Below the pieces are notes generated by a model, which was given only the letters and a program-made list of their open reading frames with translations, was not told the origin of the DNA and made no database searches. From NCBI GenBank assembly GCA_947375185.1, contig CANCEU010000003.1:20528-84527 (forward strand): a stretch of DNA of 64,000 nt, written 5' to 3'. A program made the translations under genes and the position numbers. Positions 12,933-21,890 of this stretch are shown here, in pieces; the first letter of the stretch is position 1, and every line of letters starts with the position of its first letter. This DNA is from Chitinophagaceae bacterium (GTDB lineage: Bacteria; Bacteroidota; Bacteroidia; Chitinophagales; Chitinophagaceae).

Positions 12933-13256
12933 TTATTTTAGTTCCGCCGAACCTAAACCAGCTTTAGGATTTTTTAAAAATTCATTCTTGCATTCGCTCG
13001 AGCAGAATCCAAGTACATGTCCATCGTAGTGAGCGGTATCGCTGATGCCTGCAGTTACTGGCATGCCACAAGTTGGATCTTTTTTATTGTCTACCAAACT
13101 CGTCGCAAATGTTATAGTTGTTGATGTGTCAGCGGACATAGAGGTAGCTGTGTCCTTTTTTACTTCACTTTGTTCAGTCTGCTGAACTCCACATGCTGTA
13201 AATATGCTTGCTCCCACTAATAAGCTCAATCCAATTATTTTTTTCATAAGGTTCAT
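12933..13256 (-). CDS. YHS domain lipoprotein
   Basis: MNLMKKIIGLSLLVGASIFTACGVQQ (lipobox) and DPTCGMPVTAGISDTAHYDGHVLGFCSSECKNEFLKNPKAGL. Confidence 0.8.
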   Translation of the reverse strand: MNLMKKIIGLSLLVGASIFTACGVQQTEQSEVKKDTATSMSADTSTTITFATSLVDNKKDPTCGMPVTAGISDTAHYDGHVLGFCSSECKNEFLKNPKAGLGSAELK

Positions 13257-13271
13257 TTTGTTCTCTATATC

Positions 13272-13279
13272 CAAAATTA
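13272..13279 (-). promoter_or_regulatory. Bacteroidota -7 element TAATTTTG for the YHS gene
   Basis: Perfect TAnnTTTG on minus strand. Confidence 0.45.
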
Positions 13280-13414
13280 CGAAGCCTTAAGGGCAAAATA
13301 AAAACTAACAACTATTATTTTAGGACCTTTTATTGTCTTTTATGCCTTTCAAGTTCAAATTATAGCTACGATTGGGTCATATTTGTTTAATTATTTTATA
13401 CTTTTACTACCTAA

Positions 13415-13651
13415 TTCCTATCAAAGGATAATATTATGAAACAAGGACAATTAAATACTATACCAGTTAGTGCAAATTTTGCACCGGTCCTTGTATTGAA
13501 CAGCCCCATCAGGTTGCCGCTTGCGGTATCATTTTCACCCCGACGTGGATTCTGATAGGACGAGCAGTTGGCAATTGCCCCTATCAGTGGAAAAAACCCC
13601 GAAATTTTCTAGAAACGCCAGAAGTGTCATTTCCTTAAATTTTTAAGATCA
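13415..13651 (+). promoter_or_regulatory. Structured 5' leader of the arginine biosynthesis operon (candidate cis-regulatory RNA); 5' end inferred
   Basis: About 235 nt non-annotated, GC-richer than its surroundings; helices ACAAGGAC(13441-13448)/GTCCTTGT(13487-13494), GTGCAA(13470-13475)/TTGCAC(13479-13484), CTGATAGG(13552-13559)/CCTATCAG(13580-13587). Confidence 0.6.
13436..13555 (+). CDS. Candidate 39-aa leader peptide MKQGQLNTIPVSANFAPVLVLNSPIRLPLAVSFSPRRGF
   Basis: ATG...TGA ORF in the arginine operon leader, ending Ser-Pro-Arg-Arg-Gly-Phe; too short for the ORF track. Confidence 0.45.
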   Translation: MKQGQLNTIPVSANFAPVLVLNSPIRLPLAVSFSPRRGF

Positions 13652-14260
13652 TTGGAACAGCAAATTATAGTACGTGTAGCCCATAGTGGCGATGTTCATT
13701 ATGCAACAACCATCACTGATGAGATGGCTTCCTCTGCAAAAGCGCGTGGAACAGGGATTGCGAAGCGTAGTCCTGAATATGTTGCTAAAAAAATTGAAGA
13801 AGGTAAATCAGTTATTGCGCATACTCAAGATGGAACTTGGGTAGGCTTTTGTTATATCGAAGCTTGGCAGCATGGTCAATTTGTTGCCAATAGTGGATTA
13901 ATTGTTTCTCCAGCATTCAGAAAAAGTGGGATGGCTAAAAAGATAAAGCAAACTATTTTTCAATTGTCTCGAGAAAAGTATCCCAATGCAAAATTGTTTG
14001 GTTTAACAACTGGCTTGGCTGTTATGAAAATTAATAGTGAATTAGGTTATGAGCCAGTAACTTATAGTGAATTAACAGATGATGAAGAATTCTGGGCAGG
14101 TTGTAAGAGTTGTGTCAATTACGAAATATTAATGAGTAAGGATCGCAAAAATTGTATGTGTACTGCAATGTTACTTGAGCCAAAAGCGTCAGTAGAGACT
14201 CCGCAAGAAATTTCAAGTGGATTAAAAAGCAAATTATTAAACTGGTTTAGAAAAAAATAA
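13652..14260 (+). CDS. GNAT family N-acetyltransferase, candidate ArgA-like N-acyl-glutamate synthase; TTG start
   Basis: GNAT fold (LIVSPAFRKSGMAKKIKQTIFQLSREKYPNAKLFGLTTGLAVMKINSELGYEPV); first gene of the arg operon; no in-frame ATG upstream before the TAG at 13610. Confidence 0.75.
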   Translation: MEQQIIVRVAHSGDVHYATTITDEMASSAKARGTGIAKRSPEYVAKKIEEGKSVIAHTQDGTWVGFCYIEAWQHGQFVANSGLIVSPAFRKSGMAKKIKQTIFQLSREKYPNAKLFGLTTGLAVMKINSELGYEPVTYSELTDDEEFWAGCKSCVNYEILMSKDRKNCMCTAMLLEPKASVETPQEISSGLKSKLLNWFRKK

Positions 14261-14265
14261 AGAAT

Positions 14266-15465
14266 ATGGAAAAGGTCGTACTTGGATTTAGTGGAGGGTT
14301 AGATACTACATTTTGTGTAAAATATTTGACTCAAGATAAGGGCTTAGAAGTACATAGTGTAATTGTGAACACGGGTGGATTTACTGAAGAAGAGTTGAAA
14401 AAAGTAGAAACACATGCTTATGCATTGGGAGTAAAAACACATACCACTGTAAATGCAGTAAAAGGATATTACGAGAGCATCATTAAATACTTGGTGTATG
14501 GCAATGTTTTAAAAAACAATACCTATCCATTAAGTGTTAGTGCGGAACGTTTAAGTCAGGCATTACATATAGCAGAGCATGTGAAAAAAGTGGGTGCTAA
14601 ATTGGTAGCGCATGGAAGTACAGGTGCGGGCAATGATCAGGTGCGATTTGATATGATTTTTCAAATCATGATTCCTGGGATTGAAATATTAACTCCAATC
14701 AGAGATTTACAATTAAGCAGAGAAGCGGAAATTGAATACTTGAAAGGAAAGGGCGTGGAGATGAACTTTGAAAAAGCAGCTTATTCTATCAATAAAGGAT
14801 TGTGGGGAACGAGTGTGGGTGGTAAAGAAACATTGAACTCGAAAGGCATGTTACCCGAAAGTGCATGGCCTACGCAAATGACAAAGGAAGGAGCAACTGA
14901 AGAAATGGTGATTCGTTTTGAAAAAGGAGAAATCACGAAAGTAAATGGTCAATCCTTTACACATCCAACTGAAGCCATTCAATATATTCAATCTATTGCA
15001 GGCGCTTATGGGATTGGTAGAGACATACATGTTGGGGATACCATCATTGGTATCAAAGGTCGTGTAGGATTTGAAGCTGCTGCCCCCATGGTCATTTTAA
15101 AAGCACATCATGCATTAGAAAAACATGTATTGACTAAATGGCAATTATCATGGAAAGATCAATTAGCATCGTTCTATGGTAACTGGTTGCATGAGGGACA
15201 AATTTTAGATCCAGTGATGCGTGATATTGAAGCATACTTAACTAATTCTCAAGAACAAGTTAGTGGAAATGTATTTGTTCAATTGAATCCGTATCGCTTT
15301 CAAATTATTGGTATTGAATCAGAAAATGATTTGATGAGTGCTAAGTTTGGAAAGTATGGCGAAATGAATACTGGATTTACTGGTGCTGATGTAAGAGGAT
15401 TTACCAAAATTTTTGGCAATCAAACAGGAATTTTCCACAACGTGAAAGAATCTAATAAAAAATAA
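14266..15465 (+). CDS. argG: Argininosuccinate synthase
   Basis: VVLGFSGGLDTTFCVKYL; AHGSTGAGNDQVRFD. Confidence 0.93.
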   Translation: MEKVVLGFSGGLDTTFCVKYLTQDKGLEVHSVIVNTGGFTEEELKKVETHAYALGVKTHTTVNAVKGYYESIIKYLVYGNVLKNNTYPLSVSAERLSQALHIAEHVKKVGAKLVAHGSTGAGNDQVRFDMIFQIMIPGIEILTPIRDLQLSREAEIEYLKGKGVEMNFEKAAYSINKGLWGTSVGGKETLNSKGMLPESAWPTQMTKEGATEEMVIRFEKGEITKVNGQSFTHPTEAIQYIQSIAGAYGIGRDIHVGDTIIGIKGRVGFEAAAPMVILKAHHALEKHVLTKWQLSWKDQLASFYGNWLHEGQILDPVMRDIEAYLTNSQEQVSGNVFVQLNPYRFQIIGIESENDLMSAKFGKYGEMNTGFTGADVRGFTKIFGNQTGIFHNVKESNKK

Positions 15466-15478
15466 AATTAAGCATCTG

Positions 15479-16459
15479 ATGCAAAAGGTTAATATTGGAA
15501 TAGTTGGTGGAGCTGGTTATACAGGTGGTGAACTACTACGTGTATTGTTACGCCATCCTAATGCGCATATTGCTTTTGTGCACAGCACCAGTAGTGCTGG
15601 AGAATTGGTAAGTAAAGTACATGCTGATTTAGTGGGAGATACTAATTTACAATTTACTAATGTATTAGACCAAAACATTGATATTCTTTTTTTATGTGTA
15701 GGTCATGGAGATGCTAAAAAGTTTCTAGCTGCCAATCAAATAAAAGCGGGCATTAAAATCATAGATCTTTCACAAGATTTTAGGTTAGCATCAACTGCAG
15801 TTTTTGGAGAAATGCAATTTGTATATGGTTTACCTGAATTACAAAAATCGTCTATTCAAAAAGCAAATTATATTGCCAATCCAGGTTGTTTTGCTACCGC
15901 TATTCAATTAGGGTTGTTGCCATTGGCTGCAAAAGGGTTATTAAATGAAGTGTATACCACTGGCATTACAGGTTCAACTGGTGCAGGACAAGGGTTAGCT
16001 GCAACGAGTCACTTTAGTTGGAGAGCCAATAATATTCAAGCCTATAAAACTTTACAGCACCAACATCTAAATGAAATTGGCGAAAGCTTGGCTAACTTGC
16101 AAGGCAATCAAAATGCCGAAGTTCATTTTGTACCATGGAGAGGTGATTTTACAAGAGGTATTTTTGTAACATCGGTTGTTGGGTGTGATTTGAGTATCGA
16201 TGCAATATATGAATTATACAATGCTTTTTACGAAGCGCATCCATTTACACATGTTTCCAAAAACAATATTGATTTAAAACAGGTAGTAAATACCAATAAA
16301 TGTTTAATCCATATTGAAAAGCAAGGAAATAAAATTGCAATTCATTCTGTTATAGATAATTTATTGAAAGGTGCAGTTGGGCAAGCAGTACAAAATATGA
16401 ACTTACTTTTAGGACTAGAAGAAGGGACAGGTCTGCAATTAAAAGCAAATTATTTTTAA
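15479..16459 (+). CDS. argC: N-acetyl-gamma-glutamyl-phosphate reductase
   Basis: NIGIVGGAGYTGGELLRVLLRHPNA; ANPGCFATAIQLGLLPL. Confidence 0.95.
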   Translation: MQKVNIGIVGGAGYTGGELLRVLLRHPNAHIAFVHSTSSAGELVSKVHADLVGDTNLQFTNVLDQNIDILFLCVGHGDAKKFLAANQIKAGIKIIDLSQDFRLASTAVFGEMQFVYGLPELQKSSIQKANYIANPGCFATAIQLGLLPLAAKGLLNEVYTTGITGSTGAGQGLAATSHFSWRANNIQAYKTLQHQHLNEIGESLANLQGNQNAEVHFVPWRGDFTRGIFVTSVVGCDLSIDAIYELYNAFYEAHPFTHVSKNNIDLKQVVNTNKCLIHIEKQGNKIAIHSVIDNLLKGAVGQAVQNMNLLLGLEEGTGLQLKANYF

Positions 16460-16520
16460 TAATATTAATTAGTAAAAGAGAAATCTAGTAAACGATTTCA
16501 TTAATATAAAACTTTCAATC

Positions 16521-17672
16521 ATGTCATTATTCAATGTTTATCCTTTAAATCCTATTGCTATTACTAAAGCTGCGGGCAGCCGGGTATGGGACGATAAGGG
16601 GCAAGAATATTTGGACATGTATGGAGGCCATGCTGTTATAAGCATTGGACATACTCAACCTCACTGGGTAAAGCGCATCGAGGAACAACTGCATGCGATT
16701 GCGTTTTATTCTAATTCGGTAATTATGCCAATTCAAGAAAAATTGGCTATAGCATTAAATGAAATTAGTGGAAAAAAAGATTTTCAATTGTTTCTATGTA
16801 ATAGTGGCGCAGAAGCAAATGAGAATGCATTAAAGTTAGCTAGCTTTCATACCGGAAGAAAAAAAATTATTGCGTTTAAGAAATCATTTCACGGAAGAAC
16901 TTCATTAGCAGTAGCTGCTACAGACAATCCAAGTATTGTGGCTCCCGTAAACGATACGGATAATATTATCTTTTTGCCATTTAATGATGTTGCTGCATTA
17001 GAGAATTGTTTTGCCTTACAAGGTACTGAAATTGCAGCTGTAATAATTGAAGGTATACAAGGTGTTGCAGGCATTCATGAAGCAAGTGATTCATTTTTGC
17101 AGGCCATCAGAAAAGTTTGTGATGAGAATGGGGCAGTTTATATAGCAGACAGTGTACAATGTGGATATGGTCGATCTGGTCAATTTTTCGCACATGATCA
17201 TGCTGGAGTAAATGCAGATATTTACGCTATGGCAAAGGGTATGGGAAATGGTTTCCCAATTGGCGGAATATTAATTGCACCACATATTCAAGCTAAGTTT
17301 GGAATGTTGGGTACTACTTTTGGTGGCAATCCATTAGCATGTGCTGCGGCATTAGCAGTTATTGAAGTAATGCAAAAAGATAATTTAATCAAAGCTGCAC
17401 AAGAAAAAGGAATCTATTTAATAAATGCTTTGAAAAATATTAAAGGTGTTAAGGCAGTAAGAGGTAGAGGGTTAATGATTGGTTTTGAAATGGAGGCAGG
17501 ATTGGAAGATATTCGAAAAGTTTTATTGAATGATGTAAAAATATTTACAGGTGAGGCAAAGCCAAATGTTGTAAGATTGTTACCATCCTTGGCGATAAGC
17601 ATGGAGGATATCAATTTATTTTTAACCGGGTTGAATAAAGCAATTCAACTTTTGAAGCAAAACGCAGCGTAA
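16521..17672 (+). CDS. argD: Acyl-ornithine aminotransferase (PLP, class III)
   Basis: YLDMYGGHAVISIGHTQPHWV; SGAEANENALKLA; FHGRTSLAVAAT; AMAKGMGNGFPIGG. Confidence 0.92.
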   Translation: MSLFNVYPLNPIAITKAAGSRVWDDKGQEYLDMYGGHAVISIGHTQPHWVKRIEEQLHAIAFYSNSVIMPIQEKLAIALNEISGKKDFQLFLCNSGAEANENALKLASFHTGRKKIIAFKKSFHGRTSLAVAATDNPSIVAPVNDTDNIIFLPFNDVAALENCFALQGTEIAAVIIEGIQGVAGIHEASDSFLQAIRKVCDENGAVYIADSVQCGYGRSGQFFAHDHAGVNADIYAMAKGMGNGFPIGGILIAPHIQAKFGMLGTTFGGNPLACAAALAVIEVMQKDNLIKAAQEKGIYLINALKNIKGVKAVRGRGLMIGFEMEAGLEDIRKVLLNDVKIFTGEAKPNVVRLLPSLAISMEDINLFLTGLNKAIQLLKQNAA

Positions 17673-17676
17673 GCTC

Positions 17677-18645
17677 ATGAAACAATTTATTTCAGTAAAA
17701 GATGTAACGGATATCAATTTATTGGTAAAGCAAGCATTGCACTATAAAGCAAATCCATTTATAGATAAAGCATTAGGTGCCAATAAAAGAATTGGGTTGT
17801 TGTTTTTGAATCCAAGTTTAAGAACAAGATTGAGTACACAAGTTGCTGCTCAAAATTTAGGTATGGAGCCTATAGTATTTAATGTTGATAAGGAAGGTTG
17901 GGCATTAGAGTTTACGGAAGGTGCAATCATGAATGGAACAACTGTAGAACATATTAAAGACGCTGCTCCCATTTTGGGTAATTATTTTGATATACTTTGT
18001 ATAAGGACATTTCCTGGATTGCAAAATAGAGCGGATGATTACGGTGAAAAAATAATCAACCAGTTTATTAAGTATGCCGGAATTCCAATTGTGAGTTTAG
18101 AGTCAGCGACTTTGCACCCATTACAATCTTTAACCGATATAATAACCATTCAGGAATCAATTAACTTGAATGAAAACTTAAAAAACAAACAACCTAAAAT
18201 AGTGTTAACCTGGGCGCCACATATTAAGCCTATACCACAATGTGTAGCTAATAGCTTTAGTGAATGGGTGAATGCATGGGGAGAAGCAAATTTTGTCATT
18301 ACCCATCCTGTTGGATATGAATTAGACACGCAATACACACATGGTGCAACTATTTCGCATCATCAAGAGGAAGCTTTAAAAGATGCCGATTTTGTTTATG
18401 TAAAAAATTGGAGTAGTTATAGTGAATATGGAAAAGTGCTTTCAACTGATGAAAGTTGGATGTTGACGAATGCGAAGCTAGCTTTAACTAATAATGCGAA
18501 AGTGATGCATTGTTTGCCTGTGAGAAGAAATGTAGAATTAAGTGATGAAATTTTAGATGGCGCAAATAGTTTGGTCACAAAAGAAGCATCTAATAGAGTA
18601 TGGGCAGCACAGTCAGTACTAGCAAATATTTTAGGTTCATTATAA
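17677..18645 (+). CDS. argF': N-acetyl/N-succinyl-ornithine carbamoyltransferase
   Basis: NPSLRTRLSTQVAAQNLGM; HPLQSLTDIITIQE; MHCLPVRRNVELSDEIL. Confidence 0.92.
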   Translation: MKQFISVKDVTDINLLVKQALHYKANPFIDKALGANKRIGLLFLNPSLRTRLSTQVAAQNLGMEPIVFNVDKEGWALEFTEGAIMNGTTVEHIKDAAPILGNYFDILCIRTFPGLQNRADDYGEKIINQFIKYAGIPIVSLESATLHPLQSLTDIITIQESINLNENLKNKQPKIVLTWAPHIKPIPQCVANSFSEWVNAWGEANFVITHPVGYELDTQYTHGATISHHQEEALKDADFVYVKNWSSYSEYGKVLSTDESWMLTNAKLALTNNAKVMHCLPVRRNVELSDEILDGANSLVTKEASNRVWAAQSVLANILGSL

Positions 18646-18670
18646 TTTAATAATGAACACAAATCATAAA

Positions 18671-19453
18671 ATGGAAAAATTATACATCATTAAAATTGGA
18701 GGTAATATCGTTGACAATCCTGTATTGTTAACGGAGTGCCTAACTGCTTTTTCAAAATTGAAAGGGCAAGCTATTTTAGTGCATGGGGGCGGAAAATTAG
18801 CTACCCAAATGGCAACATCCATGGGGGTTGAGCAAACCATGGTGGATGGAAGAAGGATTACCGATGAGACAACGTTGAAAATTGTAACCATGGTATACGC
18901 AGGTGCAATCAATAAAAATATAGTTGCACAATTGCAATCATTGGGAGTGAACGCAATGGGTTTAACTGGGGCAGATGGAAATTTAATATATGCCCATAAA
19001 AGAATAGATAGTGCTATTGATTATGGCTTTGTTGGTGATGTAGATGGAATCAATACTGAGTTGGTAAAACAATTATTATCTAGTTCAATTAAATTAGTAG
19101 TAGCACCCATTACCCACGATGGCAATGGTCAATTATTAAATACCAATGCCGATACAATTGCTCAAAGCATTGCAACAGGTATGGCTAAGCAATATGAGGT
19201 GCATTTAATATATGGTTTTGAAAGAGAAGGGGTATTATCAGACGTTAATAATCCTGATTCAATTATCGCGTTTATTGATCGACCGGCTTACGGTACATTA
19301 AAAGAACAAAAAGTCATCTTTGAAGGAATGATTCCTAAAATTGACAACGCGTATTTGGCTTTAGAAGGTGGTGTGCAATCAGTCATCATTGGAAAAGCGG
19401 AAAAAATGAATCAATTAATTAACGGTACTGCAGGTACCACAATCAAAATATAA
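18671..19453 (+). CDS. argB: N-acyl-glutamate kinase
   Basis: MEKLYIIKIGGNIVDNP; LVHGGGKLATQMATSMGV; MGLTGADGNLI. Confidence 0.9.
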   Translation: MEKLYIIKIGGNIVDNPVLLTECLTAFSKLKGQAILVHGGGKLATQMATSMGVEQTMVDGRRITDETTLKIVTMVYAGAINKNIVAQLQSLGVNAMGLTGADGNLIYAHKRIDSAIDYGFVGDVDGINTELVKQLLSSSIKLVVAPITHDGNGQLLNTNADTIAQSIATGMAKQYEVHLIYGFEREGVLSDVNNPDSIIAFIDRPAYGTLKEQKVIFEGMIPKIDNAYLALEGGVQSVIIGKAEKMNQLINGTAGTTIKI

Positions 19454-20556
19454 TGTCACAGACCAATAACATACAACAAAACAGTGCACAGATTATAGCT
19501 TTACAAGAGGAAGCAAAACAATTATTAGAAAAATTAATTGCTTGCCCTTCCTTTAGCAAAGAGGAGGATAAAACTGCTGATTTAATTCAAGCTTATTTAC
19601 TTCATAAAAAAGTAAAAACAGAAAGAATTAAAAATAATATTTGGGCAGTAAATACACATTACGATGAAGTAAAGCCAACCTTATTGTTAAATTCTCATCA
19701 CGATACCGTTAAAGCAAATAAAGGATTTACAATTGATCCTTTTGTCCCAATTGAAAAAGAGGATAAATTATTTGGGCTGGGAAGTAATGATGCAGGAGGT
19801 TGTTTGGTGAGTTTAATAGCTACTTTTTTGTATTACTATGATAGAGCCGATTTGCCATTTAATATTATTTTAGTGGCTTCTGCCGAAGAAGAAATATCAG
19901 GGGTAGACGGAATTGAATTGGTATTACCATCATTGCCTAAAATTGATTTTGGAATTGTAGGAGAGCCAACTTTGTTGGAAATGGCGATAGCTGAAAGAGG
20001 ATTATTGGTGTTAGATGTGGTGGCTTCTGGAAAGTCAGGACATGCTGCAAGAGAAGAAGGGGAAAGTGCCCTATATAAAATATTGCCAGATATCGAATGG
20101 TTTAAATCTTATGAATTTGAAAAAATTTCTGACTTATTGGGAAAGGTAAAAATGACTGTAACCGTTATTGAGACAGAGAATAAACAACATAATGTGGTAC
20201 CTTCTACTTGTAAAATAGTTGTAGATGTTCGTGTAAATGAATTATATACGTTTGAAGAAATATTGGAGACTATTGGGAAGCATGTAAAGTCGTCAGTAAT
20301 ACCAAGATCATTAAGAATGCGTTCTACAGGAATTGCACTTGATCATAAATTAATTCAAGCAGGGTTGGCGCTAGGTAAAGGATATTATGGTTCAGTGACT
20401 ACATCTGACAAAGCATTAATGCCATTTCCAACTTTAAAAATGGGGCCAGGTGATTCTGCCAGAAGTCATACTGCAGACGAGTTTATCTTTGTAAGAGAAA
20501 TAGAGGAGGGAATTCAGACTTATATACAACTAATTGATAAAATGATTTCATTATGA
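19453..20556 (+). CDS. argE: M20 family acyl-ornithine deacylase
   Basis: NSHHDTVKANKGFTIDPF; GSNDAGGCLVSL; SAEEEISGVDGIE; operon position. Confidence 0.88.
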   Translation: MSQTNNIQQNSAQIIALQEEAKQLLEKLIACPSFSKEEDKTADLIQAYLLHKKVKTERIKNNIWAVNTHYDEVKPTLLLNSHHDTVKANKGFTIDPFVPIEKEDKLFGLGSNDAGGCLVSLIATFLYYYDRADLPFNIILVASAEEEISGVDGIELVLPSLPKIDFGIVGEPTLLEMAIAERGLLVLDVVASGKSGHAAREEGESALYKILPDIEWFKSYEFEKISDLLGKVKMTVTVIETENKQHNVVPSTCKIVVDVRVNELYTFEEILETIGKHVKSSVIPRSLRMRSTGIALDHKLIQAGLALGKGYYGSVTTSDKALMPFPTLKMGPGDSARSHTADEFIFVREIEEGIQTYIQLIDKMISL

Positions 20557-21890
20557 GTAAGCTTTGGCAAAAAAATAATAAGGTAGCTAGTTCGGTTGAA
20601 CAGTTTACTATTGGTAAGGACCAGGAAATGGATTTATACTTGGCTGCTTATGATGTATTAGGATCCATTGCGCATACCACGATGTTATCTGAGGTTGGTC
20701 TTTTAACAAATTCAGAGCAAGTTCAATTAAAAAAAGCATTGGTTGAAATATATGCAATGGTGCAAGCAGGTAATTTTCAATTAGCAGAAGGCGTTGAAGA
20801 TATTCATTCACAGGTGGAAATGCTATTAACTGAAAAGCTGGGTGATATTGGTAAAAAAATTCATAGTGCACGTAGTAGAAATGATCAGGTTTTAGTAGAT
20901 CTTAAATTGTTTTTACGCGCTGAATTAATGTCATTAACCACTTCAGTTCAATCCTTATTTAGTTTGTTGCAAAATAAAAGTGAGCAACATAAAAATGATT
21001 TATTACCCGGATATACGCACTTGCAGTTGGCCATGCCATCTTCCTTTGGTTTGTGGTTAGGGGCATACGCTGAAAGTTTAGTGGACGACATGACCATATT
21101 GCAAGCAGCATTTACAGTTGTGAATAAAAATCCATTAGGATCTGCTGCAGGATATGGATCTTCATTTCCAATTAACCGAACAAGGACAACTGAATTATTG
21201 GGTTTTGAGACATTGAATTATAATGTTGTTTATGCGCAAATGGGTCGTGGTAAAGCGGAAAGAATTACAGCTATGGCATTGGCAAATTTTGCAGATACAT
21301 TGTCAAGACTAAGTATGGATGCTTGTTTATTTATGAATCAGAATTTTGGGTTCATTAAATTCCCTGAAGAATTAACAACAGGATCAAGTATTATGCCGCA
21401 TAAAAAAAACCCAGATGTATTTGAATTGATAAGATCTTATTGCAATCGTATAAAAGCACTGCCTAATGAAATTATGATGATGACTACAAACCTGCCTTCG
21501 GGTTATCATCGTGATTTACAATTATTAAAAGAACATTTATTTCCAGCATTTCAACAATTGAAAAATTGTATGGAAATGGCTTCTTTGATGATTCAGCATA
21601 TGGAAGTGAAACAAGATTTATTGGAGGATCCTAAATATCAATATTTATTTAGTGTTGAAGAAGTCAATAAATTAGTGAATGCGGGTGTTCCTTTTAGAGA
21701 TGCGTATAAAAAAATTGGATTGGCAATTGAAGACGGAAATTATACATATTCAACAAAGGTTGCCCATACCCATGAGGGCAGTATTGGAAACCTTTGTACG
21801 GCAGAAATTGCTATTGCTATGAAAAAAGTGTTAAATAGTATGGAATTTGAGAAAGTTGACCAAAAAATTAACCAATTATTGAAGCCCTAA
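20553..21890 (+). CDS. argH: Argininosuccinate lyase
   Basis: DIHSQVEMLLTEKLGDIGKKIHSARSRNDQV; GSSIMPHKKNPDVFELIR. Confidence 0.95.
   Translation: MSKLWQKNNKVASSVEQFTIGKDQEMDLYLAAYDVLGSIAHTTMLSEVGLLTNSEQVQLKKALVEIYAMVQAGNFQLAEGVEDIHSQVEMLLTEKLGDIGKKIHSARSRNDQVLVDLKLFLRAELMSLTTSVQSLFSLLQNKSEQHKNDLLPGYTHLQLAMPSSFGLWLGAYAESLVDDMTILQAAFTVVNKNPLGSAAGYGSSFPINRTRTTELLGFETLNYNVVYAQMGRGKAERITAMALANFADTLSRLSMDACLFMNQNFGFIKFPEELTTGSSIMPHKKNPDVFELIRSYCNRIKALPNEIMMMTTNLPSGYHRDLQLLKEHLFPAFQQLKNCMEMASLMIQHMEVKQDLLEDPKYQYLFSVEEVNKLVNAGVPFRDAYKKIGLAIEDGNYTYSTKVAHTHEGSIGNLCTAEIAIAMKKVLNSMEFEKVDQKINQLLKP

Follow-up and report, generated by a model that had tools for sequence, protein, structure and literature searches.

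A structured leader before the arginine operon of a Chitinophagaceae bacterium is probably a ribosome-mediated attenuator that reads arginine codons

Upstream of the arginine operon in a 64,000-nt stretch of Chitinophagaceae DNA (the window; features are on its forward strand unless noted), we found a short open reading frame (ORF) that ends in arginine codons and whose stop codon lies inside a conserved hairpin, P1, with a loop predicted to pair with a second hairpin, P2. Judged from this sequence and those of its relatives, the leader is probably a ribosome-mediated arginine attenuator. The sensor half of this attenuator is well supported, and the readout half we infer, as convincing terminators occur in some clades only. 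The original prediction for this region had described a structured leader before the arginine operon, which is indeed conserved in relatives, and had called it a riboswitch or attenuator. The second word is the better one, since an Arg-codon ORF at a fixed distance from P1 explains the sensing; the 39-codon ORF itself, the P1-P2 loop contact and the phylum-wide Arg leader peptides had been missed.

The operon begins with a gene for a GNAT acyltransferase that has a TTG start (13652..14260; Pfam) and continues with argG, argC, argD, a carbamoyltransferase gene, argB, an M20 deacylase gene (argE-like) and argH (14266..21890; Pfam and NCBIfam). The GNAT protein (13652-14260) scored below every NCBIfam cut-off, yet heads arg operons across the phylum, and could be the missing first acyltransferase of the arginine pathway. 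The carbamoyltransferase (17677-18645) was closest to N-acetylornithine carbamoyltransferase (279.6 bits against a cut-off of 288), which makes an acylated ornithine route likely. A small divergent gene on the reverse strand (12933-13274) encodes a lipoprotein-like product with a CGMPV...CSSEC motif that is YHS-like by eye. Accounts of arginine control in bacteria usually centre on ArgR. The ArgR family, PF01316, was found in none of 41 relatives, including the genome of the window itself (93% complete), in a search whose controls were positive in 9 of 14 cases, a Bacteroides control among them; this fits a substitute regulator. Rfam 15, T-box included, gave no match at gathering score in the window and only chance matches at E values up to 10, in agreement with the earlier remark that no Rfam family could be recognized here.

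The putative leader peptide ORF (MKQGQLNTIPVSANFAPVLVLNSPIRLPLAVSFSPRRGF-stop; 13436..13555; 39 codons), identified from homologues and frame conservation, runs through the conserved helices, and its 3′ end reads CGA CGT GGA TTC TGA TAG, for a peptide ending in ...SPRRGF-stop. A peptide search of 61 genomes returned 10 same-genus homologues at E < 0.005, all of which sit before the same gene as in the window. For the family as a whole we compared 80 Chitinophagaceae leaders (a set dereplicated at 85% identity). None had an in-frame stop in the 60 nt before P1 (0/80), compared with 37 and 54 in the other frames, and 78 of the 80 carried at least two Arg within the last ten codons, where nearly every leader has between two and four. 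Leader Arg fell at positions -3 to -8 before the stop (48 leaders at -6, 24 at -5, 69 at -4 and 49 at -3), with synonymous variation among the codons used. The same pattern of Arg conservation with synonymous variation marks CGA CGT (13541..13546; -4 and -3 before the stop) as the putative regulatory Arg codons of the window. CGA accounted for 99 of 211 leader Arg codons (47%) versus 9% in the 14 window genes that form the whole of our codon-usage baseline, and this excess is possibly in part attributable to RNA constraint; AGA made up 53% of the Arg codons in the same genes. On these comparisons we regard the frame-conserved leader ORF as real and probably translated. Readthrough or frameshifting of the leader stop into the GNAT gene was considered and rejected: although leader and GNAT gene are in the same frame in the window, relatives keep neither the stops between them nor the spacing. 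A second short ORF from the GTG at 13587 was likewise set aside, its frame not being kept (judged by eye).

P1 (13552..13587), defined by model matches and covariation, consists of an 8-bp outer stem CTGATAGG/CCTATCAG (13552-13559/13580-13587), an ACGA/C internal loop, a 3-bp inner stem GCA/TGC and a 9-nt loop, GTTGGCAAT, with the leader stop codon inside its left arm. The hairpin was invariant among close relatives and covaried family-wide. Its outer stem offers a single informative pair, the remaining ones being fixed by the search pattern, and this pair was UA in 67 leaders, CG in 42 and UG in 15, and broken in 0. The inner pairs also covaried (GC/AU; AU 55 and CG 54), although over the three pairs GCA/TGC only. 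The longer inner stem first proposed, GCAGTT-GGC-AATTGC, is therefore retained for these three pairs and not for the fourth and fifth, where we saw no covariation, which leaves an apical loop of about nine bases. The internal-loop ACGA was near-invariant (99/113), and in the linker that follows (TGGAAAAAACCCCGAA; 13588..13603; family consensus TGRAAAANYCYCC) three bases were invariant across 124 leaders: T at linker position 1, G at position 2 and A at position 4.

A covariance model of this RNA, R1, found matches in 60 of the 200 family genomes searched and at 58 of the 80 named GNAT loci, including those of Sediminibacterium, Niabella, Terrimonas, Flavihumibacter, Ferruginibacter and Hanamia, and all R1 matches checked precede the GNAT-arg operon. 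DNA and covariance-model searches of a phylum sample gave no real match outside Chitinophagaceae. We also looked for copies before other operons and rejected the idea: there was one real R1 match per genome, except in a fragmented assembly (G846, two), and the R1 matches at L069-L071 were chance ones inside genes.

Upstream of P1 and within the ORF lies Hairpin A (ACAAGGAC/GTCCTTGT around GTGCAA/TTGCAC; 13441..13494). In 21 close relatives the pairing of its outer helix (13441-48/13487-94) and inner helix (13470-75/13479-84) was preserved in 85% of cells, and there were 26 double-sided changes versus 9.9 in shuffled alignments and a covariation of 0.232 versus 0.102 ± 0.017 (0/500 shuffles), a result that covers the close, ATG-started group only. 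A small 5′ hairpin, TCCT-ATCAA-AGGA (13416..13428), was paired in 89% of cells in 21 relatives, and two of its pairs showed double-sided changes. CCTATCA (13417-23), previously proposed to compete for the TGATAGG segment, forms mostly an arm and the loop of this small TCCT/AGGA hairpin; the competing pairing had 0 double-sided changes and individual pairs that fail in as many as 11 of the 21 relatives, and we discard it. ATCAGG (13508-13513), the other proposed rival partner, resembles the P1 left arm, not its partner, and falls in a variable part of the ORF. As for the promoter that had been thought plausible, the -7-like element of Bacteroidota type seen in the sequence, TACTTTTA (13399..13406), is kept in most of 21 close relatives and remains a candidate, whereas the TTTG at 13382-13385 is only 13 nt from it, nearer than is usual for a -33 element.

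The folding energy of the whole leader was only mildly better than that of shuffled sequences (z -1.76; 11/200), which is insufficient for a claim of structure, and the claim is therefore carried by the comparison across relatives. On that comparison we take the helices to be real and conserved. All the segments quoted in the original prediction are present where it placed them, and its nested helices are conserved; the covariation it suggested testing among related arg operons was found in 21 close relatives for Hairpin A and across the family for P1.

P2 (ACGC-CAGAA-GTGT; 13615..13627) represents a recurrent downstream hairpin, centred about 32 nt beyond P1 in many leaders: the best downstream hairpin was centred 30–35 nt past P1 in 23 of 80 leaders versus 3.5 after shuffling, with sequences that differ. 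Comparison of the leaders shows the predicted pairing of the P1 loop with P2. In the window, TTGGC of the P1 loop (13568..13572) would pair with GCCAG of P2 (13617-13621) through 5 bp, including one G-U, that are conserved and show no double changes. This assignment draws on conserved co-occurrence, GCCA being present at the expected offset in 18 of 39 leaders with TGGC in the loop and in 0 of 77 without it (Fisher p 1e-10, relatedness uncorrected), and on a sister clade in which a covarying NACC:GGTN contact occupies the same place as TTGGC:GCCAG. GGT was found at the P2 position in 51 of 61 leaders with ACC in the loop versus 7 of 55 without ACC. The pair flanking ACC:GGT took all four Watson-Crick combinations (C:G 17, G:C 7, T:A 6, A:T 4) and was Watson-Crick in 34 of the 51, against 14.3 ± 3.0 by permutation. 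The mean complementarity score between the P1 loop and P2 was 11.2, compared with 9.6 when loops were exchanged (z 6.4) and 10.0 when P2 was shuffled (z 5.8). When 49 leaders were placed on a tree of their GNAT genes, the contact sites changed 16 and 17 times and the pair only 22 times, which amounts to 11 shared changes versus 2.9 expected (p 5e-7); this is a parsimony count, many branches of the tree have weak support, and the supported ones yield too few independent pairs for a decision.

In the ACC clade the contact uses the P2 loop and is compatible with the P2 stem, which argues against a plain either/or switch. When P1 was partly blocked in the fold, TTGGC:GCCAG appeared as an ordinary long-range helix, so that this pairing may serve in more than one state. 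A pairing of the P1 right arm with a downstream GGAYTGG, noticed by eye, was rejected in favor of the loop contact, which explains it better. We observed as well that in ACC-clade leaders (L136, L148, L132 and others) the P2 loop, YUGGUNR, resembles an anticodon loop of seven bases with its U-turn, and its partner in P1 is NACC.

P2 is followed by a T-rich tract, CATTTCCTTAAATTTTTA (13628..13645), recognized from base composition across leaders; at 40–60 nt after P1, T made up 42–47% and G 4–9% in 80 leaders. A terminator score of at least 8 was reached by 18% of leaders versus 7.5% of shuffled ones. In several Sediminibacterium-type leaders P2 and then a U-run form a good terminator (e.g., AAACACAGAGGTGTTTTCTTTTT), whereas terminators are weak elsewhere and many ACC-clade leaders have no U-run after P2. 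A universal intrinsic terminator is not supported, convincing examples being confined to some clades.

In the mechanism that we propose, scarcity of charged tRNA-Arg would make the ribosome wait at CGA CGT with most of P1 uncovered; P1 would then fold and its loop capture the 5′ part of P2, such that P2 and the T-rich tail would fail to terminate and the operon would be on. When arginine is plentiful, the ribosome would stand at the stop codon and cover the entire P1 left arm, leaving P2 to fold alone, and transcription would end, or initiation at the weak TTG start would stay low. Rare Arg codons would sharpen the sensitivity of this sensor, and the attenuator would stand in for ArgR. Toeprints usually lie at +16, counted from the P codon's first base. 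With CGA (13541) in the A site the ribosome edge falls at 13553 and P1 was still predicted to fold; when the stop codon occupies the A site, the edge falls at 13565 and P1 was predicted to be unable to fold, suggesting that low arginine favors P1. Placing the second Arg codon (CGT) in the A site already abolished P1 in the predicted fold of the window. We infer that P1 holds back P2 via the loop contact, and the direction is right, with the operon on at low arginine; the near-invariance of P1 exceeds the needs of a simple masking model. At a little under even chances, the leader would have a new architecture, that of a tertiary-contact attenuator: the stop-codon hairpin would offer its loop to the second hairpin, and whether the two touch would depend on the ribosome standing on the Arg codons or on the stop. 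It would then be one branch of a Bacteroidota-wide Arg leader family whose RNA readouts were replaced lineage by lineage.

The same Arg-codon sensor could instead have translation (or mRNA stability or Rho) as its output; P1, linker and P2 would then fold into a compact pseudoknot and control how readily ribosomes reach the non-AUG start of the GNAT gene. The first gene starts with TTG in 44, GTG in 32 and ATG in 2 of the 78 leaders (of 80) in which a start was found, so 76 of 78 are TTG or GTG, and the distance from the end of P1 to this gene is narrow (48–88 nt, median 66 nt). Weak terminators in much of the family and, in the ACC clade, a kissing contact that can form alongside the P2 stem also point this way. 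Yet P2 and a U-run do occur together in several Sediminibacterium-type leaders, start control of one gene alone would not govern eight genes, and we did not see a consistent structure covering the first-gene start codon. We consider a translational output rather unlikely, in an estimate that is not exclusive of the one for the attenuator, the sensor being common to both.

It is improbable, in our judgment, that the peptide itself senses arginine (or ornithine) by nascent-chain arrest, in the way of SpeFL or the fungal arginine attenuator peptide (AAP), with P1 only reading the arrested ribosome. Close relatives do share non-Arg residues (MKQ, NSPIRLP, RRGF or RRGC), and the final leader residues are narrow in choice (C 46, F 25 of 80). 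Family-wide, however, the peptides have little in common beyond the Arg codons, with start, length (24–50 codons) and middle all varying, and the final C of the last codon is required for pairing in P1. A metabolite riboswitch would have an incidental ORF and a ligand pocket built from P1 with its ACGA/C internal loop, the loop contact and the A-rich linker. It would suit the family-wide near-invariance of ACGA, linker and outer stem and the pseudoknot-like fold, but appears highly improbable given that RNA pairing needs do not account for the conservation of the ORF frame and the Arg codons, that Arg leaders persist in families without this RNA, and that Rfam gave no match.

The Arg-codon sensor of the proposed attenuator is, by comparison of genomes, widespread in the phylum, and the RNA part changes. 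GNAT-arg loci without this RNA keep Arg-ending leaders, RRPRI-stop in Chitinophaga, Segetibacter and others, and the Cyclobacteriaceae leaders end in RRQIRI and RPVRFVRI. Among 40 genomes sampled across Bacteroidota upstream of the same operon, 21 had at least four Arg in the last 12 residues of a leader ORF, versus 2.1 after shuffling and 1 on the reverse strand; the same test with other residues gave 0–3 genomes of 40. Lineage-specific Arg-ending leaders (RRIPRRR, TRRRP, RRPYMPRA) were observed in the arg operon upstream regions of 40 genomes (L204-L243), with downstream hairpins of their own, such as GGAAAT..ATTTCC in L224 and L231. Unrelated stems lie over the stop codon, at the same place, in some distant leaders (L204, L208, L173, L163), and most have none. 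As a rule for the phylum, a stop-overlapping P1-like stem was rejected: of the 36 distant leaders only 6 (L140, L163, L173, L176, L204, L208) reached p 0.05, and the mean was 13.6 versus 12.2 ± 0.4.

ArgR was not found, and the leader peptide, conserved across much of Bacteroidota, is the likely sensor in a phylum with few worked-out attenuators. The loop contact, if true, would read the position of the ribosome in a new manner, and lineages that keep the peptide sensor while swapping the RNA part would offer a natural series for the study of attenuator evolution.

The trp, his, leu and thr leaders of enteric bacteria are the classic amino-acid attenuators. Common to these and to the present leader are a short ORF with codons for the amino acid of the operon and a stop placed so that ribosome position picks the hairpin; here, in contrast, the amino acid is arginine, the first hairpin holds the stop and touches the second by its loop, and there is no universal U-run terminator. 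SpeFL and the fungal arginine attenuator peptide are short peptides that control arginine or ornithine metabolism. They sense a ligand through the nascent chain, whereas the present leader would sense codons, and the likeness lies in what the peptides control. The uORFC-8-2 motif before cysS in Rhodobacterales also has tandem cognate codons in a short ORF and a conserved downstream structure, read as ribosome-mediated attenuation, but it concerns cysteine, another phylum and another structure (PMC8632094). According to the excerpted text of PMC10272879, the ilvB-II motif of Corynebacterium, found as a structured RNA candidate, resembles the arginine leader in having a conserved uORF that controls an amino-acid operon (ilvBNC), and differs in serving branched-chain amino acids in another phylum. 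Within the same phylum, excerpts of reports on Flavobacterium psychrophilum (PMC9723704) and Bacteroides thetaiotaomicron (PMC7366714) suggest leader-peptide attenuation before amino-acid operons or in long 5′ UTRs, and those excerpts name neither an arginine leader nor this RNA. Our literature search found no arginine leader peptide of Bacteroidota; a 2010 comparative attenuation survey and a 2007 note on pseudoknots in attenuation, both cited in an excerpt of PMC4833913, may bear on priority. The kind of control is classic, while this RNA and its loop-to-loop contact appear undescribed, and the leader probably represents a new family within a familiar class of regulators, set apart by its unusual loop contact.
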